From positions 61,947-125,946 of the IMG/VR virus record IMGVR_UViG_3300017917_002762: 64,000 nucleotides of DNA; one strand, 5' to 3'. Position numbers and translations under genes: made by a program. The stretch comes from a virus. Position 1 is the first letter of the stretch. Each line of letters opens with the position of its first letter. Positions 1 through 18,024 of the stretch are shown here, one piece after another. Below the pieces are notes generated by a model. It was not told the DNA's origin. It made no database searches and worked only from the letters and a program-made list of their open reading frames with translations.

Positions 1-2651
1 TAATTTTTAGGAATTACTAATCCATGTTTGGCTGTAAATTCAGTATTACCATTTCTAATACTTACACCATTTTTACCAATGGTTAAATCTACCCCACCTT
101 CTTTATGTGTGGGATAACCTTTTAAATCTTTTACAAGTTTCCATTTACCACCTTTAGTAAAGTTAGTTTGTAAACCTTTTTCAGCTTTTAATTTACCTCC
201 ACCACAATCTTTTTCTATTTTATTTTCTTGTTCAAGTTGATTTAAAACACTAATATACAAATTATTATCCATTTCTCCAACTTTACTATCAGGAAATATA
301 GTATCAAGATAAGAGCTATAAAGTTGTTGAGCTTGTTGTTTATTTTTTAACTGTATTTCAAAATAAGTACCTTTATCAACAGCATAACTTTTATCTAATA
401 AAGATTTCCAAACTCTATTTGCAGCCTCATTAATATCTGCTTTACCAAAAGCTTCTGATTTTAGTGTCTTACCTTCTTTAGCTAATTGTTCTGCTAAAGC
501 TATATAAACTTTTGTACCAAATCCTTTACCTTGAAATTCTTTTTCTAATTCTACTCCAGCCATCCCTATAGAAGATGATATATAGCCTTCGTTATCTACA
601 GAAATAATTCCTGCATATTTACCATCTATTTTAATAGGATAAGATATTGCTTCTGGATTATCTGGATTAAATCTTGGTTTATCTAGTTGTATTTCAGAAG
701 TATTAATTAACCCTAAAGCTTCATATACAGAATTAGCAAGGTCTTGATTAGATTCAAATAACTCTTCTACTCCTGGTTTTATTTCTTCTGTAGCTTTATT
801 TTTTTTAGACTGTTGAATTTGAAAGTAAACAAGCCTGTCATTAAAATCAGGAGGAAGAATAGATTTATCATCGTAATAGTCCCACATTTGATAATCAAAT
901 GCATCTTTTGCCCTACCCATCATGTTAAGCTTTTCGTAAAAAGCATAATTAAAATGAGCTAAAGAAAGACCAAATTCAGAATCTTCTATTCTTTTATATT
1001 GTTCTGAAGACTCTGGACGTAAAAAGAAATCAAACAGATAAATTTGTTTTAGTTCTTCTTTAGTGAAATTCTCTAAACGCTGATTGAAAGAACCTGTATA
1101 TGACTTAAATCTATTTTTTAATTCTTGATTTTCACTCCAAATAGCATTGATTGTAATGTAGAAAGCATTTGCTTTTTCATTATAGAAGGAATATAGAAAG
1201 TCAGTTTGAGGAAACTCTTTTTTAAACTCTTGTAAAACTTCTACATTATCAATTATTTCATCAATGTTTAATCTAATATTTCCTTTTAATTTATATTTTT
1301 TAGCCTCTTGATAATTTCCTTCTGAAACGTACTTGTAATATAATCTACTACTCTCTAGTTCTTCAGGAGATAAATAATTTGCTTTATTAAGATTAATTTT
1401 GTGCACATCAGATGGTACAATATTATCAATATCATGAAGAGCATCTATCTCTGGTCTATAAGTTGTTCCTTGAAGTCTATAAGCTAATGATCCAGTAATG
1501 AGCATTCCTTTTTTAGAGAACCATTGCATAAACTTTAGTGCTTTTCCACCATCTATTTTGTTTTGATTTTTTATAGTTTCAGAATAAGATAGTAAGTTGT
1601 AATTGGATGTATCTTTCTTTATCCTATCTAACTTATCATAATTCTTATTTAATATATCTTTTGCAATAGAATCAACTGTAGTGTTCAAAGAAACATTATC
1701 AATTCCTTTAATAAGATTTAGAATATAGTCTATTACTTTTTGAACCTTTGCCCAAAATTCTGTATCACCTTTTTGAACTTTATAATTTCTAACAAGAGCA
1801 ATACCAATAGCTTGTCCAATAGCTTCTTTTTTAATTTTATAAATGTCCATATTACCTTCTTTGGTAACATATACATTTTTGTAATCTCTTAGCACACGCT
1901 GATATCCATCCCATTTATCAATGTTATCAAACATGTATTTGAATAATGGGTTGTCTGCTTTTTTATTGCTTATACTTCCCAAGAGCTCTACAAACACATG
2001 TCCATATTCTTCAGGAAGAGTTAGAAGACTTCTATTTTTAGAATAGTAGATTGTTTTAGCAAGAACATCAAACACCCCAACAGAATCTACACCAAACTTT
2101 TCTTTTAAGTTATCAAGTTCTTCTCTTCTTATTTTAAATCTATCAAAATAATTTATAAGAATATTTTCTAGTTCGTTGGATAGAGGTTCATCAATAGCTT
2201 TGTAGTATTGTCTGTCTGAATCTTTTACAAACTCTTTTAAATAAGAAGATAGCACTTCAGAAACTTTTAACTGTCTTAATGAAGGGTTTTCTTTTACTAA
2301 CTGAATAAATTGTTTTCTAATATCTGGATCAAGGCCTGCTTTCTTTAGAACATCATCTATGTTTTTTTCAGAGCCCATAGAATTGATTGTTTTATTAACA
2401 GGTTTTAGCTTTGCCTCAATCTCATTAGCTGAATTGAATATGTTTTTAATTTGAAACAAATAGTTGTTTGTAAAATCTATTTGAGCTTTTTTAGCATCTT
2501 TTTCTTGAACACCTGGTTTAATTTGTGGAGTATATTCACTTTCAGGAACATTACCTTTATACTTATCCCATAAGTAATAAGACATATCTTCTCCTCTAGA
2601 AGCTACTAATGATTTCCAAGAATCTAAATTTATATTAGGACATGTTGCCAT
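1..2651 (-). CDS. Partial virion polyvalent protein (nucleotidyltransferase-like and GNAT-like regions)
   Basis: An open frame of at least 883 codons starts at an ATG one base after the TAA of the polymerase gene and runs off the left edge without a stop. The N-terminus reads MATCPNINLDSW. Around residues 384-415 the pattern ITGSLAYRLQG...LHDIDNIVP resembles the GS...DxD signature of a nucleotidyltransferase fold. Around residues 695-735 the pattern EFQGKGFGTKVYIALAEQ is a good match to the acetyl-CoA loop of GNAT N-acetyltransferases. Near the visible end, HKEGGVDLTIGKNGVSI resembles a module common in crAss-like cargo proteins. Position after the polymerase suggests an ejected virion protein, but substrates cannot be predicted. 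The domain calls are by pattern only; the reading frame itself is certain. Confidence 0.85.
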   Translation of the reverse strand, partial: MATCPNINLDSWKSLVASRGEDMSYYLWDKYKGNVPESEYTPQIKPGVQEKDAKKAQIDFTNNYLFQIKNIFNSANEIEAKLKPVNKTINSMGSEKNIDDVLKKAGLDPDIRKQFIQLVKENPSLRQLKVSEVLSSYLKEFVKDSDRQYYKAIDEPLSNELENILINYFDRFKIRREELDNLKEKFGVDSVGVFDVLAKTIYYSKNRSLLTLPEEYGHVFVELLGSISNKKADNPLFKYMFDNIDKWDGYQRVLRDYKNVYVTKEGNMDIYKIKKEAIGQAIGIALVRNYKVQKGDTEFWAKVQKVIDYILNLIKGIDNVSLNTTVDSIAKDILNKNYDKLDRIKKDTSNYNLLSYSETIKNQNKIDGGKALKFMQWFSKKGMLITGSLAYRLQGTTYRPEIDALHDIDNIVPSDVHKINLNKANYLSPEELESSRLYYKYVSEGNYQEAKKYKLKGNIRLNIDEIIDNVEVLQEFKKEFPQTDFLYSFYNEKANAFYITINAIWSENQELKNRFKSYTGSFNQRLENFTKEELKQIYLFDFFLRPESSEQYKRIEDSEFGLSLAHFNYAFYEKLNMMGRAKDAFDYQMWDYYDDKSILPPDFNDRLVYFQIQQSKKNKATEEIKPGVEELFESNQDLANSVYEALGLINTSEIQLDKPRFNPDNPEAISYPIKIDGKYAGIISVDNEGYISSSIGMAGVELEKEFQGKGFGTKVYIALAEQLAKEGKTLKSEAFGKADINEAANRVWKSLLDKSYAVDKGTYFEIQLKNKQQAQQLYSSYLDTIFPDSKVGEMDNNLYISVLNQLEQENKIEKDCGGGKLKAEKGLQTNFTKGGKWKLVKDLKGYPTHKEGGVDLTIGKNGVSIRNGNTEFTAKHGLVIPKN

Positions 2652-2652
2652 A

Positions 2653-5600
2653 TTAACATATTGTTTTTAAAATATTACCAATTTGAAGTGGTGTATAACC
2701 CATGCTTTCTAAAAGCTGGGAATTTATTTGTGAAATAGGATAAGAATTACCATCCATTAATTTTATCTTTCTTTCTTGTTGACCTTCAGCTTCAGTTGTT
2801 ACACCTTTAGATATAAGACCTGTTTTAGTTTTATCTAATTCTGTTATTAATCCAAAATTATCATATAATTCTTTTTGTAACCATTCAGCAAATCTTGTTG
2901 GCATTTTAGCAAGACCTGTTCCAAAACCTTCTGGAAATACAACTTTTGATTTTCCAGATTGTTTAATCTTTTGAATTAACTCTGTATTAACAGATTTGAA
3001 TTCTTCAAAATCAGATTCACTATTAGAATAATCTACATTTTCTCTAGTATTATAATCATATTTTTTCTTAGTCACTATAGCATATGCATTTAATTCTGGT
3101 CTAATTACAGCGGTACCACCCCCTTCTTTATCAGGAAATGCTGTTAAACTGTAAGTGTTTTCAGTATAAATATAAGCAATATCTGGATTTTTTCTTACTA
3201 ATTCTCTAGTATATTTTTCTTTACTTATAGATACAGATTCAAATCCATATCCTTTTATAGATTTAGGTTGAAGATTTGTATACGCTTCAGCTAAAGCTTC
3301 TATAAATTTATTTTTTCCACTTTTAGTTTCCCAAAATTTATCAGTTCCTTTTACATCATGTGTTGATGCATTTATATATTTTAAACCACCTCTATCATTA
3401 ATGCCTTTAATCAGTTCAGGATGTTGTTTAAGTTTTTCAGTAAGTATATCAACCATAAGTTTATAATTAATTTTTATATTAACTTTTTTACTACCTTTTG
3501 GTTTAAACTCATTTGATTTAAAAGCTGTTTCATCAAATTCTCCTGATTTCCAAGTTTGATAAGCATGTTCTGCATTTCTAAAAGTAACATTTCTAAATTT
3601 AATAGCTAAATTATTTCCAGGATTAGTTAATTTCTTAGCAAACTCTGAACCAGAATAAGATATATTTTCACCACCTTTTTCTGATAATTGTATCATATTA
3701 GGAGCAACAGCTGCTTGTGATTGATTTTGAAACATTGGTAAATTTAATGCCATTTGTTTAAATTGTTCAATTGATGCAAGTTTCATTTCAGTAGAGCTAA
3801 TTGGTGCTGCTATCATTGGTGTACTTGCTACAGTTTCTGGTGTATAGTTACTTCTACGTTTATATCCTTCTGCTGTAAGAACATTATTTTTTTCTAAAGA
3901 TGATTGAACTAAATTATAAATAGAAGTTTCAGTATAATTTCTACCATCACCTAATGGAATTAATGGATCATATTGAGCATATTCTTGTCCTTTAATTGTT
4001 GTATATCCTGTTCTTTTATAAATCCAATAATCAAATGCTTTATATCCTTTTTTAAATTTAGACAAATTATTAATATCTTCGCTAGTAACTCCCATTTTAG
4101 GTGCAGATTGTATTATAAATTCATAATTAGAATCTGAATAATCTGCATTTAAGAATATACTAGCACTATATTTTTGCTTCTTAACAAATTTAGGTTTTTT
4201 ATTAATATTTCTATCAAACTTATTATTTTGATGAAATTGTTGCCATATTAAATTAGCATCAAAACTTTCATCAGATGCTTGATATACTGTTAACAATTCA
4301 TTAATAAATCTACTATATAAATGTGCTGGAAGTACTTTTGTATAGTTAATTGTACTATTCTGTAATCCTGATTGAAGTATTGTAAATATAGTAAGATTAT
4401 TAACAAAACTTTCTAGTTCTACATTACCACTTGCTTTTGCATAATCTAATAAATTATTTATTGATTCAATAAGTACATCATTTTTATATGTATCCATTTT
4501 ATTTCTAAATAATTTAATGTTATCTTGACCATCTACATTATTAGCAAATATAGGAAGCAATTCTTTAACAATTAAGTTTTGTGATATATTGTAATCAGGA
4601 GATTGTTTAAGAGCTAATAATTGATTAGGTAAAGATTCGCTACCACGCATTAAAATATCAAACATATCTGATATTCTTGTTTCAACTTCACCATATTTAA
4701 ACGGTGTATTTTGAATTACATATGCTATAAAGAAATTTTGATATTTATTTATTAATAATGATTTATCATCATTTGACATAAATATGTCTCTGTTTTCTAA
4801 AAAGTTATAAAGTTTTTCAAATACAGGTAAAGCTTTATCATCAAGTGAAATAAACATATCTTTAAACAATGGGAACAGATCTTCTTTTTGTTTTTTCATT
4901 TCACCAATAAATGTATTATTAAGAATGCTTTCTGGATTTGCAATAAATCCTCCATCTACCATTCTTTCCCATTTAATTTGTTGAAGTTTATTTTCGATAA
5001 GAGTTTTTGTTTTTTGATTATCATATCCTATTGAACTAATAAACTCTGTAAGATTACTAGATTGATCTTGATATTCTAGATAATCTGAAAGCATTGTTAT
5101 TTGTAATTCAGCATCTTTTTTTGTAAATTTATACTTAGGATTATTTAAATTTTTAATAGCATCTTCAAGTTCTTTTATAGAAGGTTTTTTATTTTCTTTT
5201 CTTATCCTAGAAATTTCAGAATACAATTTAATTTTTTCAGATTTAAGTGCAACATTTATATTTATTATTTCTTGTCTATCTAAATCTTCGTTATTATTAA
5301 GTTTGCTTAATAATTCATTAATACTTGAAATTAATTTAGCATTTTCATCACTAAGCATTCCAAAATATTTAGAAATAGATTCAATATACATATGCTCTCT
5401 AAATACGCTATCATTATTAACAGATTTAAATATTGATTTATTAATGTTTTCTAAACTCATATATTTTTCAACAGCAGGTTGATTAAATAAATAAGCTATC
5501 TCTTTCATTGGAACACCTAACTTCTGTAAATAAAACCATGTTCCAGCTGTATTAAAATTAATATTTAAAGAAAATACAAATGGATCTTTAGCAGCATCAA

Positions 5601-8600
5601 CAAATCCAGAAAGGGCTTCTGATATATTTTCTGATATCCATCTTCCTTCAGCATCTGTTTTAGCATTTAAATAAAACTGACCAATTTTTGTTTCATTATG
5701 TGAAAGATTAATACTAATAGTTCTTTTAATTTTACCATTTACTGTTTCTTGTGATTCTCCCTCATATTTAACCATAAATTTAACATTACCAACATCATAT
5801 TTTCCTGATAATATTATATCAGCAATTTGACACATAACATGACTTGTAGATTGTAAAGCAGCAATACCAACAAGACGTTTTCCAGTTAAATACCTTTCAC
5901 GTGTTTCAGCAGATTGTATAAATTTACGCAATGCTAACATAGAATTTTCAGAATCTTTCTTTCCTTTTAATTCATTTATTTTATTAGCAAGTGATTTAAG
6001 AGTAGCAGTACTATTAGGCATTACAAGCTGACGATAGTTTTCTGGCATAGATACAAGATCTTCCATTATTTCCCTAAGTTCATTTTGCAAAGATTCTTTA
6101 GTATCTTGACCTGCTTCAATATAAAGTATATCTTCAACTATAGGTTTAAACTCTTTCTTTTTATTTTTATTTTCTTTAATAATATTTCTACGATAATCAT
6201 TATACTCAACTAATGAATTTTTTAATTGTGTATACATATCATATTCTTCACCCGTTATATTATTTTCTTTTAAATATTCTTCTAAATTACCAAACTTACC
6301 TTTTCCACTAGTAATTGAAAAATTATTTAAATCATCAATAAGATCAGCAAATTGTTCTTCAGATAAACCATTTATTATTTTTCTAATTGATTTTGAAATG
6401 TTATCAAAAAAAGGACTTTTCTTAAAATCAACTATTTCTTCTTTTGTAAATTTAGAATACTTTAATACATAATTAGGAATATAAAGATTCATTTTATCAA
6501 TATCAAAGTCAGAACCAGCCTTACCTACTATTTCTGTTGGTACAACAATCATATCTCCACTTTCTCTAGGTAAGAAACCTTTAACCACTATACTTTCAAT
6601 AGAGTTCATACCTTGTGTAGGAATACGGAAACCAATCATTTGTAGAAGTCTACTATCCATATTTTTTGGTATTTCATATACTCCATTTTTTAATTTAAGT
6701 CCAAAATCTTCTGGATCAATACCTTCAAAAAACCATGGCATATATATTTCCATCTTTGAAATTTTACCATTTTTTAATTCATAAAATTTCAAATCAGATG
6801 ATGTAGGTATAATTGTTTTTTTCTGTTCATCAGTTAATTTTTCAAGATCATCAACTTCAGTATAAACATCATTATCAAGATACATCATTTTTCTATTAGT
6901 AGAATTGTATCCAGATGATGCAACTTGAACAGCTGGTTTACCAAACATTTTAGCAGATATAACTCTTGAGTCAACTATTTTATTTAATATATTGTCAATT
7001 TTTTCTCTGTTGGCAAGAGTATCAAATTTATATAATAAACCTTTAGTCTCTGAATTTATATTTAAAGCATCAACAAGGTTAGATGGTAAATCTCTTTTAA
7101 TCAATTCATCACGTAATAACTTAATCATTTTTGTATAATCAAGTACTTCATAGTTATTATTAGAATCTACTGTAATTCCTAATTCATCAAGTAATTCTTC
7201 TTTACCTTTAGTTACAATTCTTTCTAACACTTTATTATATCTATTAACTAAATTTTCAGCTTTTGAATTAACATATTTACCATTAACTTTAAAGTTAGAC
7301 ATTATAAGTTTTGTAACCTGAGTACCTCTTACAACTTTATCTTTGTATATAGCAGGTTGTTCAGATTGTATACCATAATATTTAGTATATAATTCTTGTA
7401 TACCAAGTCCCTCTGGTAAAGACCATGACTTAGTTTTTTTATTATATTCAACATTTATAGAACCATCTTGTTTATGAAAATCAATAAATTCACCAGTTTT
7501 AGGATTTACCAATGCTCCAACTTTTTCACCTGATTCAAATCCAATAATATCAATTTGTTGACTTTGTGCAGCTATATATAATTTTTCATATTCTGTACCT
7601 TCAACATTTCTATAAAATTTAGGTTGAACAGAGTGTTTTAAAAACACAGGATGCATCATAGAAGTATTGACAGCATATCCAAAATATTGTGGTTTAATAA
7701 CAGGAAGTGGTACATTTGGATTTCCTTTTTCTAATATAGATTGGGCCCACTTTAAAGTGTATTTACCTTTTTTATATTCTTTATATCCAGCATCTGTTTT
7801 AGGTTTATTTGAACGTGCATTAATTTCATATGCTAATTCGTAATCTATTTGCTGAAGTTGTTTGTTTGAAAGTTTACTACTTAATAAGAGCATATCACGA
7901 TACATATCTGCCATAACCCATCCTTGACCATCTGCTTCATTTAATTCTATATAAGCTTTAATTTCTCCAGTAAATTTACCTTTTTCTAAAATAAAATTTT
8001 TAAAAGATCCATCTTCGTTAAATTTAGCACCAATTCTGTTTTCTGCTTCTTCTTTTGATAATTCATCTCTTCTTATTGAATCATATAATCCTTCAGCAAT
8101 TTGTTTATAATAATTAGATACAGCTGTTACATCTTTAAATGCTATATTTTTAAAGGTTTGAATTTTATTAGTACTTCTAATCTTAGAATCAAATCTTGGA
8201 ATTAATCTATCATATTCTTTGATAATCATAGGATTATCAACTATAGCATCTTTAGATGAATTAATACCATTAGCACGTTTTGCAAGATCTTTATAAAATG
8301 CAGGATGACCATACAATAATTTATGTTGTTCTGTTACAGCAAGTTCTTTATTAATTGTAATATATGTAACAAGTTTTTCTACATCATTATGTGTCATGCT
8401 AGTAGCATCTATATTAAAATAATTTTCTAATACAGTGTTATCAATAGCGTTAGTTGAATAAATAAAATTATTAATATTATCACCAGATCTATTTAGTATT
8501 CCAAGTTTAACTAATGATTCAATTGTATAATCAACTGTTTCATTAAGATCATTTTTTATAAATTCTGAAATACTTGGTTCTGCTAAAAATTCATCTTTAG

Positions 8601-11600
8601 TAATTTTACCACTAAGAAGCATTTCATATCTTTTTTGTAAAAATGATTTTTTTAAACCACTTTCTTTTAATTCTTTTTCAGTTTTAAATTGTAATACATC
8701 TTTAAAATGACCAAGATATTTAACAGAAGTAGAATAATTTTTAATATTAGATTTAGAATCAACTTCCATTAATGCAGCATCTATTTCATCAGAAAGATGC
8801 TCTAAATATATATTTAATACATTACTAAACTGACTACTATTAATTCCATATCCAGCAATATTAGGACTGATAAAAGGTTTTTTAAATGACAATGCAAACT
8901 CAGAACTTTTATCAGAATTAATAATTGTAAAATAAATTGGTTTTAATCCTTCTTTATCAGCATTAAGTATATAATTTATTTCTTGCATTATACGGTCAGG
9001 ATATGTTAAATTAGCAGTATCCGTACCATTTGTATCCATAGAACTAACACCAGATATAAGATAATAATTTATACCGTTTTTTTTATCTCCACGTTCATCA
9101 AATATTAAACCTCCTGGTTTTAAAAGTTGTGAATTATTTTGATAAGGATGTAATACTATAACGGGTTGTCCATCTTTATAATCTACCGTTCCAAATTGAG
9201 GATTAGAAAGAACAAATTCTTCTAGATTTTTTGATTCATTTAATGATGAAAGAACATAATTTATACTAGCAGGTAATGTTATAGAATATTGATTTTGACC
9301 AGAAGCAGTAGTAGACATTAAAATACTATTGTCTGTTCTCATCATAGTTTCTACAGCAATTAATTTTTTCATATTATTTGACTCAGGACCAACAGTTGAA
9401 AATAAATCATCTAAATATTTAATGCTATTTTCTTCACTACTAATTATAGAATTTTTAATATTTTTAAAAGACTCTATAATTGTTGCTTTATTAAAATTAA
9501 TAACTGGAGGAAATGATGATTTAAGTTTTCCATTTTCATCTGTTGTTCCACTAAATATAATTCCTAAATCTTTTAAATATTCTAATACAGTTGGAAGAAG
9601 TAAATTTCTATCAGCATCAGCTTTAAGACTTTGGAATTTTTTATATTGTTGACTATTAGGGTCAAATACTATATTACCCTCATTATCAAATCCCAATATT
9701 TGATTATTGTTTTGAGACTTATCCATTAAGAATTTAAGATTCCTAGGAGTGTTATTCATCCATTCTTCTCTGATTCTTTTTTCATTAGATTCATCCAATG
9801 CATCTATAGAATAAATATCTCCATTTTTATTAATGATAGTTCTTAATGGATTATTCTTTTTGTTCATTAAACTTTTTTCAAATCCAATTAAAAGTTTAAT
9901 ATCATCTATATTTAAAGTTTCTTGTGTAAAATATCTTCCTTCTTCTCCAGCATATTTCAATCTATTTTTTAATCTCTTGATCCACACAAAATTATCAATA
10001 TATAAACCTTTACTTTTATCAAAATATTTATTATCAAGTTTATCAAACATTGCAGATAATGCATCATAAAAAGTAATGTCACCATTTTTAACAATCATTC
10101 TTGAATATGTACCATTAAGTTCATTTAATAATAAATTAAAAGTTGTATCAAAATCTACAAGTGATGGTAAATCTAAATTATTTCTTTTTGCTTTTATTAC
10201 TAAATTACCTTCATCATTTTTAAAATATGCATCATTTGTTAAACTTCCAACCAATATATTAAATGATGTAGCTGTTAATCTTTTTGGATCAATGAATATT
10301 GTATCTCTAATGCCGCTATTATCATTAACTTCTAATTCATCTGTAGGTTTATTTCCTTCTTGATCTTCAACACCTTCAACTTCTTTAAACTTTAATCCAT
10401 ATTTTTGAAGAGATTGTTTTAATATATTATAAACTAATAAAGGATTTTGTTGAGCACTATCAAACATTATAGCAAATCTATTTTTAGATTTAAACTCAGC
10501 TATAGCTTGTGACCATAAATCATTTGCTTCATCTTGTGTCAGATCTCTTCCATTATATTTTATTTGTTTTATAGCTAATGGAGCATAATATCTTTGATAA
10601 CAAATGGAATTTTTTCCATAAATATTATCCCATACATTAGCCATACTTTTTTCAAAAAGTTCTTTTAAAAGTTTATTATTATTTGAGTCTTCAGATAATA
10701 AAGTTTCTATATTAGATTTTATAAAGTTTCCTTTAGAATCTTTAAGAAGATTTGGATTATGTAAATTGGTAAAAAAGTGAGCTGTCAAACCTTCAACAAA
10801 TTGATTGGTAAATTCTTGTGTAGTATTAGGTATTGTTTTTGTAATATCTTCTAATACTGCTTCTCTATAAGTAGTACCAATTTCTGAAACATTTCTTGCA
10901 AATCTAACATTAGCGTAAGAACCATTATTTATTTTATTAAATACACTATGAACAAGTGATTCACCTTCTTTCTTTTCTTTAGTAGATAAACCAATATATT
11001 TTTTAATTGTATTCCATAAATCTCTAAAAAATTCTTTAATCTTTCCTGTTAAAGATGTTTCTTTTTCAGGGGTTATATCATATTCTTCATTTAAAATATA
11101 AGTTCTAAATTCTTCCGCAAGCATTTCTCTAACATCATAATAAGAAGCATCTGCATAATTTTTTGTTTCTTTAGTAAATGGATTGGTAAAAGTACCAGTT
11201 CTATTTCTAAATTCATTTATTAAATCTGCTTGTTCAAATTGATTAAGATATGCATTCCAAATTGCTTCAAATGCTTCATGAAATCCTGTACCTATTTCAG
11301 CATTTTCATATATGTATACAATTCCATTTTTAAAAGCACCCCAAGCTTTACCATCTATTAATTCTGCAACTTTAACTATTTTAATATTTGGTAATTTAGA
11401 TTTAAACCAAGCTTCCATTTTTGCAAAATCTTCTGTTTGCATTACTGTATTGCTTAATCTTTCTCTATAAAACTCTTCGTTATTATTTGCAGGATTACCA
11501 CCTAAATTGTTAGGTTGTGTACCATTAATAACAGTATTTAATTCAGTACTAGATATTGGAGCTGGTTCAACAGATGTTGTTGCTGGTTGACTAGATGTTG

Positions 11601-14600
11601 GTATAGAAACACTTATACCTTGACTTTGAATAGCTAATAACTGTTGTTCTGGTGTAGAAGGTTGTGTAGAAGTTATAGGTTGAGTTTGAGCTTGTGTTTG
11701 AAAACCTGTAAAACCACTTTTCCATAAACTTGCACCTGTAGTTGGAGATGCATTTTGTTGATTATTTTGAATATTGTTATTTATATTAGTTTGTAAATTT
11801 TTATTTTCTGAATTTTGTGCAGCATTATCAAATTTAACATTAATAGGTTGACCTGGACTTAAAAGAACTACGTTACCAGTTCCTCCTTTTAATGAAGGTA
11901 TTGAACCTTCTGCTTTTAATTCTTTATTAATAATGATAGGTTCAAAAGGATCTTCAGGATTATTAAAAATAATATTTACACTTTTTAATTGTGGTGTAGT
12001 TACATCTGTTTCACTATATTCTGGAACATTTGTATATATAACAGGTTCTGATGTTTTAAATAAATACTCTGTATAATTTTCATATTCTTTTTTAATTATA
12101 GGATTACCATCTTTATCAATACCCATTTCAAAAAATGGCTTATTTGTTTTATTTAATAAACTACTATTAACCTGATGATATAATCCTTCTGTAAGTTTTT
12201 CTGCATTTTCATCAATATCTGTTGCACTTAATGTGTATCCCACACCTCCTCTATAAAGTTTATTATCAGAACTACTTATATAAAATCTATTTTGAGATTC
12301 ACTTTTATTACCTTCTGTTGTCCAAAAAATTAATCCTTGTAAATAATTAAGTATATCTTCTCTTGATTGTAATTGATTTTTAGTTAATGCTAAAGGATCA
12401 ACAGCTTCTATTGCATTTATTTTAGCAATGTATTTTAATAAATCAATAATGGTATTTTTTTCATCTGTATTAAGTTCTCTATTAAACACTCTAAAAATCT
12501 GACCATCATCTCTTTTCATATATAGACGACCTTCTTTAACACCATCAGATTTATCTGTTGCAACTTCAAGTTTAATACCTTGACCATTTGGGTGCATTAA
12601 GTTAGAATAATCATTAGTTCCTTTCATGATTAATCTATTTTCTAAACTATGTTCTTGAGGTAAATCAGTTTGAGCATCTTTAGGAAGAATTACTTGTGTA
12701 CCTCTAGTTTTACCTGAAATAGGAATAATGATTTGTTTTCCTTGTTTTATATTTTCACGTGTATTTTTAATAAAACTAATATACCCAATTACTATATTAG
12801 ATATTTGTTCTTTAGTTAAACCTTTAGTTGTAAACTTACTTTCTACCCATTTAATTGCATTTTCAAGTGGACCAAATAATTCAGTATTCATCCTAAAACT
12901 TGTATATACAATATTATCAGCATTAGGATTATCTAATATTTGACCTGTTATGTCAACAGGTTTATATTCTCCATCATCATTTTTAACAACTATAACTTTA
13001 ATATCATTTTCATCATAAGTTATTCCGTAATTATCAGTATCTTTTGTAATTGGCATTAAGAAATACTCACCACCACTTAAGTTTAGATTATCTGTAAATT
13101 TAAAAAATCTTGCATTACCATTTTTTAAGTTTATATCTGTATCTTCTAAATCATTATAATGTAAACCTGTAGTAAGATAAAGTCCAGTTAATCTTAATAA
13201 TGGTTTTTTTAATTGATCAGGATTATTAAACAACTCTCCTTCATTAGATATTTCTACAAGATTAGCATCTGGATTTTGTTTTAATAATTCAGCTCTTCTT
13301 GCAGAAGTAATTTCTGTTTGTAATCTTCTACGTTCTTGTATGTATGATACTTCAGAAAATAATTCATCCTGAATATATTTTAAAAATTTAATTCTATCTT
13401 CTAATTCAGAATACTCTTTAAGTTGTTCTGATGCTTTTTGAAGTCTTTGTAGTTTTGGAAACAGCTCAGTATTAATTTTATTAAATGCTTCTTTTGCATT
13501 TTTAAACCCACCAGCTAATTCTTTGGCAATTTGAAAATCAAGATTATTATTAACAATTCCTCTCCTTAAAAATTTTAAAAATTCTATTTTATCATCATCT
13601 TGACTTTTTTCTTCTTCTTCTTTTAAATACTTTGTAAGCCATTTTTTACTATTATCACTATTAAGAATATCAATGATATCAATATACTTACTTAATTTTT
13701 TCCAAATATCTTTAGCTTCTATAGCAAATTTTTCAAACTTTTGAATTATTTCTTTAAGTTCTTCTATTTCAAATTCTGTATCAAAAAGAAATTTATCAAC
13801 CTCTTCTTTAGAATATCTTTTAGTTATAAGATTTTCTCTTAAAGATTCTGCTTTTGTTTCTTCTGTAGTATAAATGTTACCAGATGAATCTTTTTCAAAT
13901 GCTTTATTGGCTTGTTCAATTTCATCAAGTGCCATATAATATGCATCTCTTGATGTATTTAAACTATCATAGAGTTCTGTTAATGATGTAAGTTCTTCTT
14001 TTAAATCATTAATTAAAGTTTCTATACTATTAATTTTTTCAGGAAAAGAATCAATAGTTTCTTTCATTTTAAGATACTCATTACTACGTCTACCAGACTT
14101 TTTTGGTGGATTTTTTTCTATGTATTGTTGAGCAGTTTGAAGATCTTCACGCATTAATTCTACTTCTGCACGTAAATCTTCTAATCTTTTTGTATTATCT
14201 TCTCTTTTCTTTTTTGTGTCTTCAAGATTTAATTCTACTCTATTAATTAAATTAACTAAAGCTTGTTTTTGATCTTCAATATTTTGTATTTGTTTATACT
14301 TTTCTTCTTCTAAAAGTTGATCTTTATAAAATTCATTAATAGTAAGTCCATTACCTTTGCTTTGTCTTTTAGAAGCATATTTTTCATAATATTTTAAATT
14401 AAATAAAGGTGTAAGAAATTTATTCTTAAACTTATATTTCATTCTAATAACAAAATTTCCATCTTCATCATATTCGCCAACTAAAGTTGCGGTGACCATT
14501 TTACTTGTATCACTATAATCTTTATCATCTAATTTATGAGGAGTTCCATATTTTTCATTTACTTTAATATCAAATTGTTTATCACGATTAATATAATAGA

Positions 14601-17600
14601 ATCTTTCTAATATAGTTAATTCTTTAAAGTTTTTAAGTAAACCAAATTCATTTGCAAAGTCTTCTGCTTTTTTTGTAAATGTTTCTGGTTCATAATTAAG
14701 TTGATATGTTATATTTCCATCTTCAATTGAAATAATTTTAATTACATCATTTGAAAATTTAGATTTTCTTTTTTGATCTACTTTATCTACAGTTGATTTT
14801 TCTTTTAATTTTTCATATAATTTACCATCATCAGTTAATTCACCTTTTTCATTTTTAAAAATTTCTTTATATGCTTGTATTTCAGCATCTTCTTTAGGCA
14901 TTCCATTCTTAACTAAACCTTCTATTCTTTCATCTAATTGATTTTGTAATTGATCTAAATTATATTTTTCATCTTCAGTTAATTTTTCTTTTTTAATTTT
15001 TTTCTCTTTCTGTTTTTCTTTTTCTATTTCTTCTGTTAAATAAAAATTATTCTCTACAATTTCAATAGTGTGATCATTGCCTTCATTATCCTTTACATCT
15101 ATTTTAATTCTATTTGCATTTTCATCATATGTTTCATCTAATAATTCTAATAAACTTTCAGCTTGTTCTTTAGTTTCATGTTTACTAACTACAATACCTT
15201 TAGGAGAATATATAACATATTTACTATTTACTTTTAATATAAAGTGTTTATTATTTTTTGGATTTTTTTCAATATAATCAGCACCTGCTTTTTTAACTGC
15301 TTCTTCATCACCAAGCATGTCCATTAATTGTCTTAAATGTGCTTTATGTAAATTTTCAAAATTACTAGGATTAGCAATTAAATTAAAATAAGAAAGAATA
15401 TTTTCATAATCAGTTTGTAAATGCAAATAGTCAAACATATTACCAACTGTTTTATTTAAAATATCAGTTGTTAAATTTGTAATACTTTTATCTTTATTAT
15501 CTAAAGAAATAATATTAGAAATATCTTGTGCATTTTCATTAATAAAATTTGCTTTTATTTCTGATATTTTATCAGTGTTATTACCTGCTTCTTCTAGTTC
15601 ATTTATAAATTTTTCTACACTTTTTTTATATTTATTTAAAAGATCTAGTTTAGATTTTTTTTCTTCTTTAAGTGTAGGATCAGATATAGCTTCAAATTCT
15701 TTTTCTAAAATTTCAATTTCTTTTTTAAGAGTAAGAGAAGGAGATGTTAATGAATATAAAGAATTAAAATTAATACCAGGAAGATTTTCTTTAATTGCAC
15801 TTAATATTTCAACTTGTCTTTTTGCAATATCTTTATATGTTCCTCCACTAAATGCAATATGATCTATTGCTTGTTCAGCAGCCATATAATTTGCAACTTC
15901 ATCTTTATATTCTTCAGTTCCAATTTTATATTTTTTAGGATTATATGGATTACCATAATTATTTCTTATATTTTCATATGTATTTTTAACTTCTTTAACT
16001 TTAGATTCAAATGTATTTACAAGATTAGTCATTGTTTCTTTAGCTTGTTCTTCAGACATACCTTCATATAAAGAACCAGCATAAGCTTGTTTAAATTCAT
16101 CTAATGTAAGATCATTTATTGATTCTTTCATTCTATCAATAACGACATCATCAACACCAGACTTAATTATACTTAATACATATTTATTAATAAAATCATT
16201 TCTACTATCCCAATAATCTTTTTTTCTACCATCTTTTGCCGATTCATCCATAGATGCATTAAGTTCAACCAATGATCTATAAAAATCAGTTTTGTTATTA
16301 GTTGCTTGATTTAATGTTGAAACTAATTTAGTTCTTTCTTCATTTGCTCTTTGAACACTTGATTTATAACCATCAATGTTCATTTTTCTTTCATAAAGAT
16401 TTTTACCAGTTCTTATTGTACCACCAAGAACGTTCATTATACCACCAGTTAAAAAACCACTCATGAATGTTTTTAAACCATCCATTGTAAGTTGTTCTTT
16501 TGCACCAGCATATAAAAAATCATTAATACCTTTTTGATTTAATCTTTGTTTTTCTGTACCATAATTGTATAAATACCATTGTTTTGTAGCACTGTCTATA
16601 ATATCTTGTCCAGTTTCTTGGACACCTTCCATTAAATTTGTTTTAGTGTAAGTTATAGGTGCTTTTAATAATGTTTTAAAAGGAGAAGTTTTAAGTTGAT
16701 GAGTAAAAGCTGAAATTCCTGTTTTTGCAACAAAAACATCTTCTCCAGCTTTAATTGCTTTTTTACTATTAATAAAAATACCTTTTGCAACTAATCCATC
16801 ATCTAAAAATCTAGTTCCTTTAAATGTTTTAAATACACCATCAAAAGCAATTTTATCTGTAAGTGCAATCCAAGCAGCTTGAACAGCACCTTCTGTTTGT
16901 ATAGTTTCAAATGCTTTTTGTTTTAATTTTTGTTTTATTGCTTCATTTGGTTCAACACTATTTACATTTTTATATTCATTAAGAGCCATTTCATATGCTT
17001 CATCCATAACAGGAGCAATTGTTGCTTTTGCTTCTGTTATACCAGCATTAATCATTCTCATATCGCGATAAAATGCTCCAAATCCCCTAGCTGTAGTTCT
17101 TAATGTGGCTACTGTTGGATTAAATACCATTTTATCAACTCTTGCTAATTTTTTTGCATCTCCTATAAATTCTGTTACATTATTAAAAGGATTAATAAAT
17201 TTAGTAAAAGAATTATTAAATATTTTTCTTAAAGTACTAGCACTTTGTAATGATTTTTCTACTTCTCTTGTCTTATTAATTACATTTCCTAGTTTAGATG
17301 CAAGTTGTAAACTTCTTGCAGCTTGAAGTTCACTTGCACCACCAAACGTTGCAGTAGTTAAAGCAGAAAGAGCAAATTCTTCAGCAGCCATTTCAAGTAC
17401 AGCACCTATAGCATATCCACTTTGCTGAATCATATTAGCAAAATTAGATACATTAAAAAAAGTGTTTCTATCTTCTTGTGTTTGAAAAATATGATATTTA
17501 TTATTAAAATCATTTTGCCAAGCATTAATAGCTTCTAATTCTGATTGTTTAAATGGTGATTCACCTTTAAACATATTTATTGTATCACCCCAAGATAAAA

Positions 17601-18024
17601 ATTGATCTTTAATTTGATTAGCTGCTAATACACTACTTCCTACTATTGCATTAGATATTTTATCCCAATTTGTTTGTGCTTTACCATATGTTTCTTCAAC
17701 ATCTATTCCAGGAAATACACCAATGTCTTGAAAATATGGTGAAGATTTAGCAAGATCATATCCAGGAATTTCTGGAGTTTCATATCGTTGAGCTTGAAAA
17801 AAAGGACTTTGAGAATATTTATTAATATTATTTTTAATATTATTTTCAATATTTTGATCATTAGCTCCTACTAATGTTAATTCAGGATTACTTGTTGAAG
17901 ATAAACTTGCAAATGGATTTTCTAAAGGATCTGATTGTGTAAATGGTACGGGTATATTTTCTTCTGGTCCATTAACAAATGAATTTTCATTTTGAGAAAT
18001 ACTTGATGTATTAAGATCAATCAT
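2653..18024 (-). CDS. Giant virion RNA polymerase fusion protein (5123 aa)
   Basis: Residues near 3836-3842 read SDFDIDK, the DFDID metal-binding loop reported for crAss-like virion RNA polymerases (phi14:2 type, QDE-1-like double-psi beta-barrel enzymes). It is preceded by conserved blocks GFRIPTQGMNSI and FLPRESGDMIVVPTE. The enzyme is expected to be packaged and ejected to transcribe early phage genes. Other regions: helical N-terminal third with long coiled coils near 1230-1500; a Gln/Thr/Pro-rich linker near 2080-2190; a degenerate zincin-like motif HEAFE near 2250; the polymerase core; a second linker near 4700-4770; a NADAR-like domain near 4780-4920; and an unassigned C-terminal domain containing GFGTGLAKMP. 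At 5123 residues it is far longer than the roughly 2200-residue phi14:2 enzyme, so several genes appear fused. ATG start; TAA stop. Confidence 0.93.
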   Translation of the reverse strand: MIDLNTSSISQNENSFVNGPEENIPVPFTQSDPLENPFASLSSTSNPELTLVGANDQNIENNIKNNINKYSQSPFFQAQRYETPEIPGYDLAKSSPYFQDIGVFPGIDVEETYGKAQTNWDKISNAIVGSSVLAANQIKDQFLSWGDTINMFKGESPFKQSELEAINAWQNDFNNKYHIFQTQEDRNTFFNVSNFANMIQQSGYAIGAVLEMAAEEFALSALTTATFGGASELQAARSLQLASKLGNVINKTREVEKSLQSASTLRKIFNNSFTKFINPFNNVTEFIGDAKKLARVDKMVFNPTVATLRTTARGFGAFYRDMRMINAGITEAKATIAPVMDEAYEMALNEYKNVNSVEPNEAIKQKLKQKAFETIQTEGAVQAAWIALTDKIAFDGVFKTFKGTRFLDDGLVAKGIFINSKKAIKAGEDVFVAKTGISAFTHQLKTSPFKTLLKAPITYTKTNLMEGVQETGQDIIDSATKQWYLYNYGTEKQRLNQKGINDFLYAGAKEQLTMDGLKTFMSGFLTGGIMNVLGGTIRTGKNLYERKMNIDGYKSSVQRANEERTKLVSTLNQATNNKTDFYRSLVELNASMDESAKDGRKKDYWDSRNDFINKYVLSIIKSGVDDVVIDRMKESINDLTLDEFKQAYAGSLYEGMSEEQAKETMTNLVNTFESKVKEVKNTYENIRNNYGNPYNPKKYKIGTEEYKDEVANYMAAEQAIDHIAFSGGTYKDIAKRQVEILSAIKENLPGINFNSLYSLTSPSLTLKKEIEILEKEFEAISDPTLKEEKKSKLDLLNKYKKSVEKFINELEEAGNNTDKISEIKANFINENAQDISNIISLDNKDKSITNLTTDILNKTVGNMFDYLHLQTDYENILSYFNLIANPSNFENLHKAHLRQLMDMLGDEEAVKKAGADYIEKNPKNNKHFILKVNSKYVIYSPKGIVVSKHETKEQAESLLELLDETYDENANRIKIDVKDNEGNDHTIEIVENNFYLTEEIEKEKQKEKKIKKEKLTEDEKYNLDQLQNQLDERIEGLVKNGMPKEDAEIQAYKEIFKNEKGELTDDGKLYEKLKEKSTVDKVDQKRKSKFSNDVIKIISIEDGNITYQLNYEPETFTKKAEDFANEFGLLKNFKELTILERFYYINRDKQFDIKVNEKYGTPHKLDDKDYSDTSKMVTATLVGEYDEDGNFVIRMKYKFKNKFLTPLFNLKYYEKYASKRQSKGNGLTINEFYKDQLLEEEKYKQIQNIEDQKQALVNLINRVELNLEDTKKKREDNTKRLEDLRAEVELMREDLQTAQQYIEKNPPKKSGRRSNEYLKMKETIDSFPEKINSIETLINDLKEELTSLTELYDSLNTSRDAYYMALDEIEQANKAFEKDSSGNIYTTEETKAESLRENLITKRYSKEEVDKFLFDTEFEIEELKEIIQKFEKFAIEAKDIWKKLSKYIDIIDILNSDNSKKWLTKYLKEEEEKSQDDDKIEFLKFLRRGIVNNNLDFQIAKELAGGFKNAKEAFNKINTELFPKLQRLQKASEQLKEYSELEDRIKFLKYIQDELFSEVSYIQERRRLQTEITSARRAELLKQNPDANLVEISNEGELFNNPDQLKKPLLRLTGLYLTTGLHYNDLEDTDINLKNGNARFFKFTDNLNLSGGEYFLMPITKDTDNYGITYDENDIKVIVVKNDDGEYKPVDITGQILDNPNADNIVYTSFRMNTELFGPLENAIKWVESKFTTKGLTKEQISNIVIGYISFIKNTRENIKQGKQIIIPISGKTRGTQVILPKDAQTDLPQEHSLENRLIMKGTNDYSNLMHPNGQGIKLEVATDKSDGVKEGRLYMKRDDGQIFRVFNRELNTDEKNTIIDLLKYIAKINAIEAVDPLALTKNQLQSREDILNYLQGLIFWTTEGNKSESQNRFYISSSDNKLYRGGVGYTLSATDIDENAEKLTEGLYHQVNSSLLNKTNKPFFEMGIDKDGNPIIKKEYENYTEYLFKTSEPVIYTNVPEYSETDVTTPQLKSVNIIFNNPEDPFEPIIINKELKAEGSIPSLKGGTGNVVLLSPGQPINVKFDNAAQNSENKNLQTNINNNIQNNQQNASPTTGASLWKSGFTGFQTQAQTQPITSTQPSTPEQQLLAIQSQGISVSIPTSSQPATTSVEPAPISSTELNTVINGTQPNNLGGNPANNNEEFYRERLSNTVMQTEDFAKMEAWFKSKLPNIKIVKVAELIDGKAWGAFKNGIVYIYENAEIGTGFHEAFEAIWNAYLNQFEQADLINEFRNRTGTFTNPFTKETKNYADASYYDVREMLAEEFRTYILNEEYDITPEKETSLTGKIKEFFRDLWNTIKKYIGLSTKEKKEGESLVHSVFNKINNGSYANVRFARNVSEIGTTYREAVLEDITKTIPNTTQEFTNQFVEGLTAHFFTNLHNPNLLKDSKGNFIKSNIETLLSEDSNNNKLLKELFEKSMANVWDNIYGKNSICYQRYYAPLAIKQIKYNGRDLTQDEANDLWSQAIAEFKSKNRFAIMFDSAQQNPLLVYNILKQSLQKYGLKFKEVEGVEDQEGNKPTDELEVNDNSGIRDTIFIDPKRLTATSFNILVGSLTNDAYFKNDEGNLVIKAKRNNLDLPSLVDFDTTFNLLLNELNGTYSRMIVKNGDITFYDALSAMFDKLDNKYFDKSKGLYIDNFVWIKRLKNRLKYAGEEGRYFTQETLNIDDIKLLIGFEKSLMNKKNNPLRTIINKNGDIYSIDALDESNEKRIREEWMNNTPRNLKFLMDKSQNNNQILGFDNEGNIVFDPNSQQYKKFQSLKADADRNLLLPTVLEYLKDLGIIFSGTTDENGKLKSSFPPVINFNKATIIESFKNIKNSIISSEENSIKYLDDLFSTVGPESNNMKKLIAVETMMRTDNSILMSTTASGQNQYSITLPASINYVLSSLNESKNLEEFVLSNPQFGTVDYKDGQPVIVLHPYQNNSQLLKPGGLIFDERGDKKNGINYYLISGVSSMDTNGTDTANLTYPDRIMQEINYILNADKEGLKPIYFTIINSDKSSEFALSFKKPFISPNIAGYGINSSQFSNVLNIYLEHLSDEIDAALMEVDSKSNIKNYSTSVKYLGHFKDVLQFKTEKELKESGLKKSFLQKRYEMLLSGKITKDEFLAEPSISEFIKNDLNETVDYTIESLVKLGILNRSGDNINNFIYSTNAIDNTVLENYFNIDATSMTHNDVEKLVTYITINKELAVTEQHKLLYGHPAFYKDLAKRANGINSSKDAIVDNPMIIKEYDRLIPRFDSKIRSTNKIQTFKNIAFKDVTAVSNYYKQIAEGLYDSIRRDELSKEEAENRIGAKFNEDGSFKNFILEKGKFTGEIKAYIELNEADGQGWVMADMYRDMLLLSSKLSNKQLQQIDYELAYEINARSNKPKTDAGYKEYKKGKYTLKWAQSILEKGNPNVPLPVIKPQYFGYAVNTSMMHPVFLKHSVQPKFYRNVEGTEYEKLYIAAQSQQIDIIGFESGEKVGALVNPKTGEFIDFHKQDGSINVEYNKKTKSWSLPEGLGIQELYTKYYGIQSEQPAIYKDKVVRGTQVTKLIMSNFKVNGKYVNSKAENLVNRYNKVLERIVTKGKEELLDELGITVDSNNNYEVLDYTKMIKLLRDELIKRDLPSNLVDALNINSETKGLLYKFDTLANREKIDNILNKIVDSRVISAKMFGKPAVQVASSGYNSTNRKMMYLDNDVYTEVDDLEKLTDEQKKTIIPTSSDLKFYELKNGKISKMEIYMPWFFEGIDPEDFGLKLKNGVYEIPKNMDSRLLQMIGFRIPTQGMNSIESIVVKGFLPRESGDMIVVPTEIVGKAGSDFDIDKMNLYIPNYVLKYSKFTKEEIVDFKKSPFFDNISKSIRKIINGLSEEQFADLIDDLNNFSITSGKGKFGNLEEYLKENNITGEEYDMYTQLKNSLVEYNDYRRNIIKENKNKKKEFKPIVEDILYIEAGQDTKESLQNELREIMEDLVSMPENYRQLVMPNSTATLKSLANKINELKGKKDSENSMLALRKFIQSAETRERYLTGKRLVGIAALQSTSHVMCQIADIILSGKYDVGNVKFMVKYEGESQETVNGKIKRTISINLSHNETKIGQFYLNAKTDAEGRWISENISEALSGFVDAAKDPFVFSLNINFNTAGTWFYLQKLGVPMKEIAYLFNQPAVEKYMSLENINKSIFKSVNNDSVFREHMYIESISKYFGMLSDENAKLISSINELLSKLNNNEDLDRQEIININVALKSEKIKLYSEISRIRKENKKPSIKELEDAIKNLNNPKYKFTKKDAELQITMLSDYLEYQDQSSNLTEFISSIGYDNQKTKTLIENKLQQIKWERMVDGGFIANPESILNNTFIGEMKKQKEDLFPLFKDMFISLDDKALPVFEKLYNFLENRDIFMSNDDKSLLINKYQNFFIAYVIQNTPFKYGEVETRISDMFDILMRGSESLPNQLLALKQSPDYNISQNLIVKELLPIFANNVDGQDNIKLFRNKMDTYKNDVLIESINNLLDYAKASGNVELESFVNNLTIFTILQSGLQNSTINYTKVLPAHLYSRFINELLTVYQASDESFDANLIWQQFHQNNKFDRNINKKPKFVKKQKYSASIFLNADYSDSNYEFIIQSAPKMGVTSEDINNLSKFKKGYKAFDYWIYKRTGYTTIKGQEYAQYDPLIPLGDGRNYTETSIYNLVQSSLEKNNVLTAEGYKRRSNYTPETVASTPMIAAPISSTEMKLASIEQFKQMALNLPMFQNQSQAAVAPNMIQLSEKGGENISYSGSEFAKKLTNPGNNLAIKFRNVTFRNAEHAYQTWKSGEFDETAFKSNEFKPKGSKKVNIKINYKLMVDILTEKLKQHPELIKGINDRGGLKYINASTHDVKGTDKFWETKSGKNKFIEALAEAYTNLQPKSIKGYGFESVSISKEKYTRELVRKNPDIAYIYTENTYSLTAFPDKEGGGTAVIRPELNAYAIVTKKKYDYNTRENVDYSNSESDFEEFKSVNTELIQKIKQSGKSKVVFPEGFGTGLAKMPTRFAEWLQKELYDNFGLITELDKTKTGLISKGVTTEAEGQQERKIKLMDGNSYPISQINSQLLESMGYTPLQIGNILKTIC

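Follow-up and report, generated by a model that had tools for sequence, protein, structure and literature searches.

A NADAR domain on a crAss-like virion RNA polymerase as a candidate injected ADP-ribose hydrolase

Results

A giant polymerase gene carries a NADAR domain and DUF7831

The window, i.e., the whole stretch of DNA analysed here, is a 64-kb part of a 125,946-base IMG/VR virus record (IMGVR_UViG_3300017917_002762). An open reading frame (ORF) on its minus strand (positions 2653–18024) encodes a giant crAss-like virion RNA polymerase (RNAP) of 5123 aa with payload domains at the C-terminus. The core alignment with relatives places the active-site motif, DFDID, at residues 3839–3843 (6496–6510, minus strand), so that the DxDxD motif of Crassvirales virion RNAPs is present in a crAss-like context. 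The block RIPT...GSDFDIDK is common to the window ORF, its relatives and phage phi14:2 (alignment, tblastn). A tblastn search with this block matches 142 phage records, and phi14:2 g066, annotated as the catalytic RNAP subunit, is matched at 54% with an E-value of 1e-11.

Sequence profiles, the predicted structure and the family alignment identify a NADAR domain at residues 4786–4921 (3262–3669, minus strand). The peptides quoted in the original prediction are all present, in frame, in the ORF at 2653–18024 (minus strand). Because these peptides and the GSDFDIDK motif lie in the same ORF, NADAR is fused to the crAss-like polymerase, as predicted. The range given for NADAR, 2900–3720, does enclose the domain; it also takes in most of a second domain, DUF7831 (residues 4930–5074; 2803–3237, minus strand).

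A zincin-like motif at 11266–11280 of the window reads HEAFE, not HExxH. The HE pair is invariant in 16 pre-core regions, with the consensus YHEAFEA, and the metalloprotease site may be altered in the clade of the window phage.

The domain belongs to the NADAR superfamily

Pfam PF08719 matches the whole 126-kb record with an E-value of 2.1e-4 (18.1 bits; curated cut-off 35.1) and the window domain alone with an E-value of 3.5e-4 (21.3 bits), still under the curated 35.1. The match to phrog_1017, a profile that also responds in three bacterial control genomes found by PF08719, is stronger (E-value 3.2e-8). Taken one by one, 14 of the 21 relatives match PF08719 (best E-value 3e-12), and two embedded NADARs, those of locus L078 (47.2 bits) and gut phage cr126_1 (54.3 bits), exceed the curated cut-off. 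A profile of the 21 relatives, searched against PDB sequences, finds YbiA (8.4e-8) and the ADP-ribose-bound P. nicotianae NADAR (8bau; 4.9e-6), with the next match at only 0.03.

An AlphaFold model built from the relatives' alignment has a pLDDT of 86.4 and a pTM of 0.83. In a blind Foldseek search of all solved structures, it retrieves E. coli YbiA (2b3w) with a probability of 1.00 and 8bau with 0.98, while every other structure among the matches listed is at or below 0.08. These two single-domain cellular proteins are thus the best and only credible structural neighbours of the embedded domain. The TM-scores are moderate (0.57) and the E-values weak, as expected for a divergent member of the family. 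A chance resemblance is ruled out by phrog_1017, Foldseek and the profile search of the PDB. By four independent lines of comparison, the window domain is a member of the NADAR superfamily, and we regard this as practically settled. The proposed NADAR/YbiA assignment of residues ~4780–4920 is therefore upheld by profiles, fold and catalytic residues alike, and matches above noise come from phrog_1017, the family profile and Foldseek.

The active site is of the phage type

NADAR enzymes use a catalytic Glu (E43 in P. nicotianae NADAR, E88 in E. coli C7 NADAR), a catalytic Lys (K50/K95) and a variable third residue (PMC11543638, PMC11125620). The third residue is Glu in the YbiA type (E125), Asp in DarT1-linked NADARs (D171) and His in phage NADARs (PMC11543638, PMC11125620). 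By alignment, the window domain keeps the first two as Glu4819 (3568–3570, minus strand) and Lys4826 (3547–3549, minus strand), with roles as assigned in PMC11543638, and both are invariant in all 21 relatives. The third position is His4889 (3358–3360, minus strand), which the profile alignment to 8bau pairs with E125. Its register is slightly uncertain owing to a one-residue insertion, the distance from the third-position His to the conserved Trp being eight residues in relatives and nine in the window. The segment Asp4895-Lys-Phe-Trp4898 (3331–3342, minus strand) corresponds in the alignments to D130 and W133, which contact ADP-ribose.

With His4889 in place of the Glu of the YbiA subfamily and of the Asp of DarT1 antitoxins, the window domain belongs to neither of these types and is assigned to the phage type. 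The alignment thus contains the catalytic residues sought in the original prediction, the third in its phage form. The domain could instead be catalytically dead and give the polymerase a structural element or a site that binds ADP-ribose or nucleic acid. The Pfam score below threshold, the divergent loop after the catalytic Lys and the replacement of Glu or Asp by His would fit such a loss; however, all 21 relatives keep Glu and Lys, and His is the normal residue in phage NADARs (PMC11125620), which makes a dead domain unlikely. Judged from these residues, the window NADAR is probably an active enzyme.

The second domain matches DUF7831

The domain after NADAR, with its GFGTGLAKMP loop, had been left unassigned; Pfam DUF7831 (PF25176) matches it with 41.2 bits over a cut-off of 27. 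Its model has a pLDDT of 87, and the confident matches of this model are limited to other proteins with DUF7831, from phages and giant viruses, and to giant proteins of three gut crAss-like phages. Neither Foldseek nor a profile search of the PDB yields a convincing solved-structure neighbour. The motif order, GGG...FPxGxGTG, is reminiscent of Macro domains; the DarG macrodomain ranks 12th in Foldseek with a probability of 0.08, and the profile search of the PDB gives no match. Rhodanese, phosphatase and other Rossmann-like folds are all returned with probabilities below 0.2.

NADAR and DUF7831 move among polymerases

Related loci (L numbers) were collected from viral contigs with two queries, the C-terminal region and the polymerase core, and their ORFs were annotated with our own profiles. 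NADAR lies at the polymerase C-terminus in the window, L011, L019, L078 and L118, between the core and a helicase in L010, and before the core in L008, L009, L012, L014, L043, L074 and L098. In L013 it is nested inside DUF7831. DUF7831 alone is C-terminal in L002–L007, L048, L049 and gut phage cr55_1. Two of the polymerase genes are open only when TAG is read as an amino acid (L009, 5329 aa versus 462; L047, 4979 aa versus 2790).

Our profiles detect NADAR in ~5 of 80 sampled crAss-like RNAPs and DUF7831 in 2 more. Because only a minority carry it, NADAR is optional for these polymerases. Its shifting position and its absence from most polymerases also argue against a structural role in transcription. 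A Pfam scan of 16 pre-core regions returns no family at 1e-3, so whole-protein Pfam scans miss most internal cassettes; the embedded pre-core NADARs were found with our own family profiles instead.

In an all-versus-all blastn comparison, the cassette is the sole DNA similarity over ~20 kb for most pairs compared. Specifically, the window and L008 share a 374-bp cassette, L004 and L006 one of 438 bp at 84%, and L010 and L012 one of 401 bp at 88.5%. L010 and L011 share 433 bp at 99.8%, although the surrounding polymerase does not align. At the protein level, the polymerase bodies are mostly 22–29% identical, whereas the cassettes are 46–66% identical. Among closely related embedded NADARs, dN/dS is 0.03–0.21, indicating that the domain is maintained for function. 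Embedded NADARs fall into several separate groups in a tree with modest support and long branches, which suggests that polymerases captured NADAR repeatedly.

Because the loci are metagenome contigs and the L010–L011 identity reaches 99.8% over 433 bp, the shared cassettes could in principle be assembly chimeras. We consider this very improbable, since the reading frame runs through both junctions of the cassette in ~10 different contigs, the identities are graded from 66 to 99.8% and the cassettes are under purifying selection. In addition, NADAR is found in giant genes of the deposited complete gut crAss genomes cr126_1, cr130_1, cr131_1 and cr272_1, as in the window; the GenBank entry for the cr126_1 protein gives it as DUF1768.

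Other domains occupy the same slots. Among 65 C-terminal tails, we find cpYpsA SLOG, SF1 helicase, histidine phosphatase and 2OG-Fe(II) oxygenase families. Several domains may share one polypeptide: NADAR, DUF7831 and RNAP in the window; SLOG, another domain of the NAD/ADP-ribose kind, directly before NADAR in L078; helicase, NADAR and RNAP in L008; and RNAP, NADAR and helicase in L010, each in one ORF. By sequence comparison, NADAR and DUF7831 are exchangeable cassettes, alongside SLOG and helicase domains. The helicases of L008 and L010 are SF1/PIF1-like and lie on different sides of the core. A second mobile cassette, of the cpYpsA SLOG type, is shared by L059 (12516–13072) and L078 (13254–13810) over 557 bp with 91.6% DNA identity. 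A third is shared by L093 (2397–2763) and L106 (8417–8783) over 367 bp at 88%, in different places in the two polymerase genes; it has no Pfam match and bears some resemblance by eye to ASCH domains.

Giant polymerase proteins carry cysteines at their ends

In an alignment of 65 unrelated polymerase C-terminal tails, the sole invariant column is a Cys. In the window, this is Cys5123 (2656–2658, minus strand), the last residue of the polymerase and one of only 3 Cys in 5123 residues. The next protein (gene 3–2651, 883 aa) starts with MATCPN and has Cys4 (2640–2642, minus strand) and a second Cys at 816. The following large protein (~1750 residues) lies outside the window and has a single, N-terminal Cys. 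Between this second and third large protein of the polymerase series, just past the left end of the window (positions 60131–61959 of the record, G000), lie two smaller ORFs of 388 and 222 aa stop to stop, possibly inserted genes.

Among 91 crAss-like polymerase proteins, Cys amounts to 0.026% outside the last ten residues, and 39 of the 91 have none there. Even so, a Cys within the last eight residues is present in 90 of 91 polymerase proteins and in 12 of 102 other long ORFs. The terminal Cys is retained in 36 of 37 clusters at 40% identity, which rules out repeated counting of near-identical genes as the source of the pattern. The next giant protein nearly always has a Cys among its first few residues (MAC, MSC, MATCPN), and in most cases no other. 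An automated count gives 82 of 83 such N-termini, the 83rd being the window, whose true neighbour starts with MATCPN.

If the protein ends are joints, a split of the polymerase should add a Cys pair and a fusion should not. The counts agree. Of 20 split polymerases, 19 have an N-terminal Cys, against none of the 40 that are fused; a C-terminal Cys is present in 13 of the 16 upstream neighbours of split polymerases and in none of the 15 next to fused ones. A small extra protein in the series (L002, L095, L112) has one Cys at each end. The N4 virion RNAP, a single protein, has 0 Cys in 3500 residues. The exceptions are the L047 polymerase and the L002 upstream protein, both without a C-terminal Cys, the L118 upstream protein, with a Cys 23 residues from the end, crAss002 gp33, without an N-terminal Cys at the annotated start, and the 883-residue second protein of the window, with its second Cys at 816.

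The embedded NADARs are likewise cysteine-free, with 0 Cys in 2345 residues versus 26 in 2262 for stand-alone phage NADARs (p about 1e-8, with residues counted as independent and the two groups differing in lineage). This is supporting, though not decisive, evidence that the embedded NADAR obeys the same Cys constraint as its carrier polymerase.

The same pattern is found in isolated phages. In phi14:2, the Cys positions are 1797 of 1797 in g067, 3 and 2179 of 2180 in g066, and 3 in g065. In crAss001, they are 2339 of 2341 in gp47, 5, 1334 and 2404 of 2412 in gp50, and 5 in gp49. p-crAssphage has a Cys at 1956 of 1957 in gp45 and then at 3 and further positions in gp44, and Fpv2 has one at 4400 of 4401 (the sole Cys), followed by 3 and 1461 in the next protein. 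DAC17 and Rudgehvirus agree, and the DAC17 polymerase shares its first residues, MSKTCYTP, with that of cr126_1, whose relatives belong to the Steigviridae. The giant proteins of gut phages cr130_1 and cr272_1 have many Cys and still keep the terminal ones. phi14:2 g066, crAss001 gp50 and p-crAssphage gp44 thus resemble the window protein in both polymerase core and terminal cysteines, and no NADAR match was obtained in these three. crAss001 gp47 is encoded on the strand opposite to that of gp50 and gp49 and does not adjoin gp50, yet it has the C-terminal Cys; the effect is therefore at the protein level, and a nucleotide-level effect of gene junctions is ruled out. The terminal-cysteine pattern is real beyond reasonable doubt.

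In Intestiviridae, an upstream protein has a single near-C-terminal Cys (Carjivirus gp47, 856 of 857; crAss002 gp30, 550 of 557; Rudgehvirus gene49, 747 of 757) with no obvious partner.

Discussion

The domain identity, fold and catalytic residues of NADAR, its fusion to the polymerase, purifying selection, cassette mobility and the absence of Cys from embedded copies are established directly by the comparisons above. crAss001 gp47, gp49 and gp50 were found in the virion by mass spectrometry, and the presumed route of the cargo is extrusion through the tail followed by refolding (PMC10172136). According to database record notes, the phi14:2 homologues of the giant RNAP proteins were likewise found in virions by proteomics. 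By analogy, the window polymerase is very probably delivered in the virion; the delivery foreseen in the original prediction thus stands by homology with the crAss001 and phi14:2 proteins detected by mass spectrometry.

We propose that NADAR is a swappable cassette placed close to the C-terminal end of a virion RNAP that would be carried in the head, be threaded down the tail and regain its fold in the host. Since homologous polymerases are virion cargo, NADAR would reach the cell ahead of the first phage transcript and of any phage gene expression, always in a 1:1 ratio to the polymerase. Once inside, it would most likely remove ADP-ribose from nucleic acid (guanine adducts) or destroy an ADP-ribose-derived host immune signal, and either action would protect the first round of transcription. 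We put the probability that the cassette on the injected polymerase is an ADP-ribose hydrolase protecting early transcription at roughly 0.6; packaging in the window phage, NADAR activity, substrate and benefit are the parts of this model that we infer. A defensive role against ADP-ribosylation or ADP-ribose signals, as originally suggested, is plausible and somewhat more likely than not, and protection of the template or the polymerase from DarT-like ADP-ribosylation is a possible form of it.

Two kinds of target have to be weighed. T4 gp30.3, a phage NADAR, hydrolyses guanosine-ADP-ribose in vitro and gives cells no protection from DarT1 (PMC11125620). Small ADP-ribose-derived immune signals have been proposed as an alternative target (PMC9503650). 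NADAR might accordingly act on soluble ADP-ribose-derived immune signals or toxic metabolites, not on ADP-ribosylated DNA or polymerase, as Iyer et al. argue for phage NADARs in general (PMC9503650); the SLOG domain adjoining NADAR in the L078 polymerase fits this, the pairing having been linked to such signals (PMC9503650). On the other hand, all NADARs tested on ADP-ribosylated oligonucleotides, one from a phage included, hydrolyse guanosine-ADP-ribose (PMC11125620). An action on soluble signals is a serious, if somewhat less probable, candidate, and both DNA guanine ADP-ribosylation and ADP-ribose-derived signals are live options as the target (PMC11125620, PMC9503650). In the 126-kb record, which is possibly incomplete, searches found no DarT (PF14487) or Macro gene as a partner of NADAR, so no genetic partner points to the substrate. 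A target not derived from ADP-ribose, such as riboflavin-pathway intermediates or NAD-capped RNA, seems improbable. NADAR proteins have been described as N-glycosidases that also act on riboflavin intermediates (PMC9503650), but there is no evident reason to deliver such an activity with the first transcription complex.

The predicted ADP-ribose hydrolase can be compared with several known systems. Phage NADARs of the T4 gp30.3 type (Pfam Phage_30_3/NADAR) have the same fold family, Glu and Lys, and His in third position. However, gp30.3 is a free-standing protein, whereas the window NADAR is cysteine-free and part of a virion polymerase. The DarT1–NADAR toxin–antitoxin system (DarTG1) has the NADAR fold and, if the predicted activity holds, the reaction in common with the window domain, and DarT1 is a possible opponent of it; there is no DarT in the window record, and the antitoxin Asp171 is replaced by His. 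Polyvalent proteins (Iyer et al. 2017, PMC5512222) are likewise giant multi-domain injected proteins with counter-host domains. Several unrelated effector domains per polypeptide, which define that class, are found in the window, L008, L010 and L078, and these proteins too would presumably be injected. One polyvalent protein, an ADP-ribosyltransferase (ART) fused to an N4-like virion RNAP (PMC5512222), shows that a virion RNAP can carry an ADP-ribose enzyme; however, ART adds ADP-ribose and its N4-like RNAP is unrelated to the crAss one, whereas NADAR is of the removing kind. No mention of crAss was found in PMC5512222. Packaging of NADAR in virions was proposed earlier by Iyer and colleagues, chiefly for myoviruses, and an injected ADP-ribose enzyme is therefore already known as an idea. 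In the literature searched, we found no description of NADAR on a crAss-like polymerase or of its mobility.

The terminal cysteines suggest how such a payload may travel. We lean towards a chain in which the giant virion polymerase proteins are joined end to end by disulfides, with the C-terminal Cys of one paired with the N-terminal Cys of the next. The tail and portal vertex of crAss001 contain disulfides between virion proteins (PMC10172136), so bonds of this kind do form in such particles. The chain would thread the polymerase parts, together with payloads that they carry such as NADAR, through the tail in a set order and with equal copy numbers, and the reducing cytoplasm would release them. 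Disulfide joints and gene fusions would then be interchangeable ways to the same chain. No treatment of these cysteines was found in the literature searched, which did not include the phi14:2 structure paper. If true, the chain would offer an answer to the question of how a set of giant proteins gets through a single narrow tail in sequence and in the correct number.

If borne out, the window NADAR would be the first case found in the literature searched of an ADP-ribose-erasing domain riding on a virion RNAP, in the most abundant group of viruses of the human gut. The crAss-like polymerase would then be a platform for swapped anti-host domains, with NADAR, DUF7831, SLOG and SF1 helicase as a short list of candidate injected effectors.
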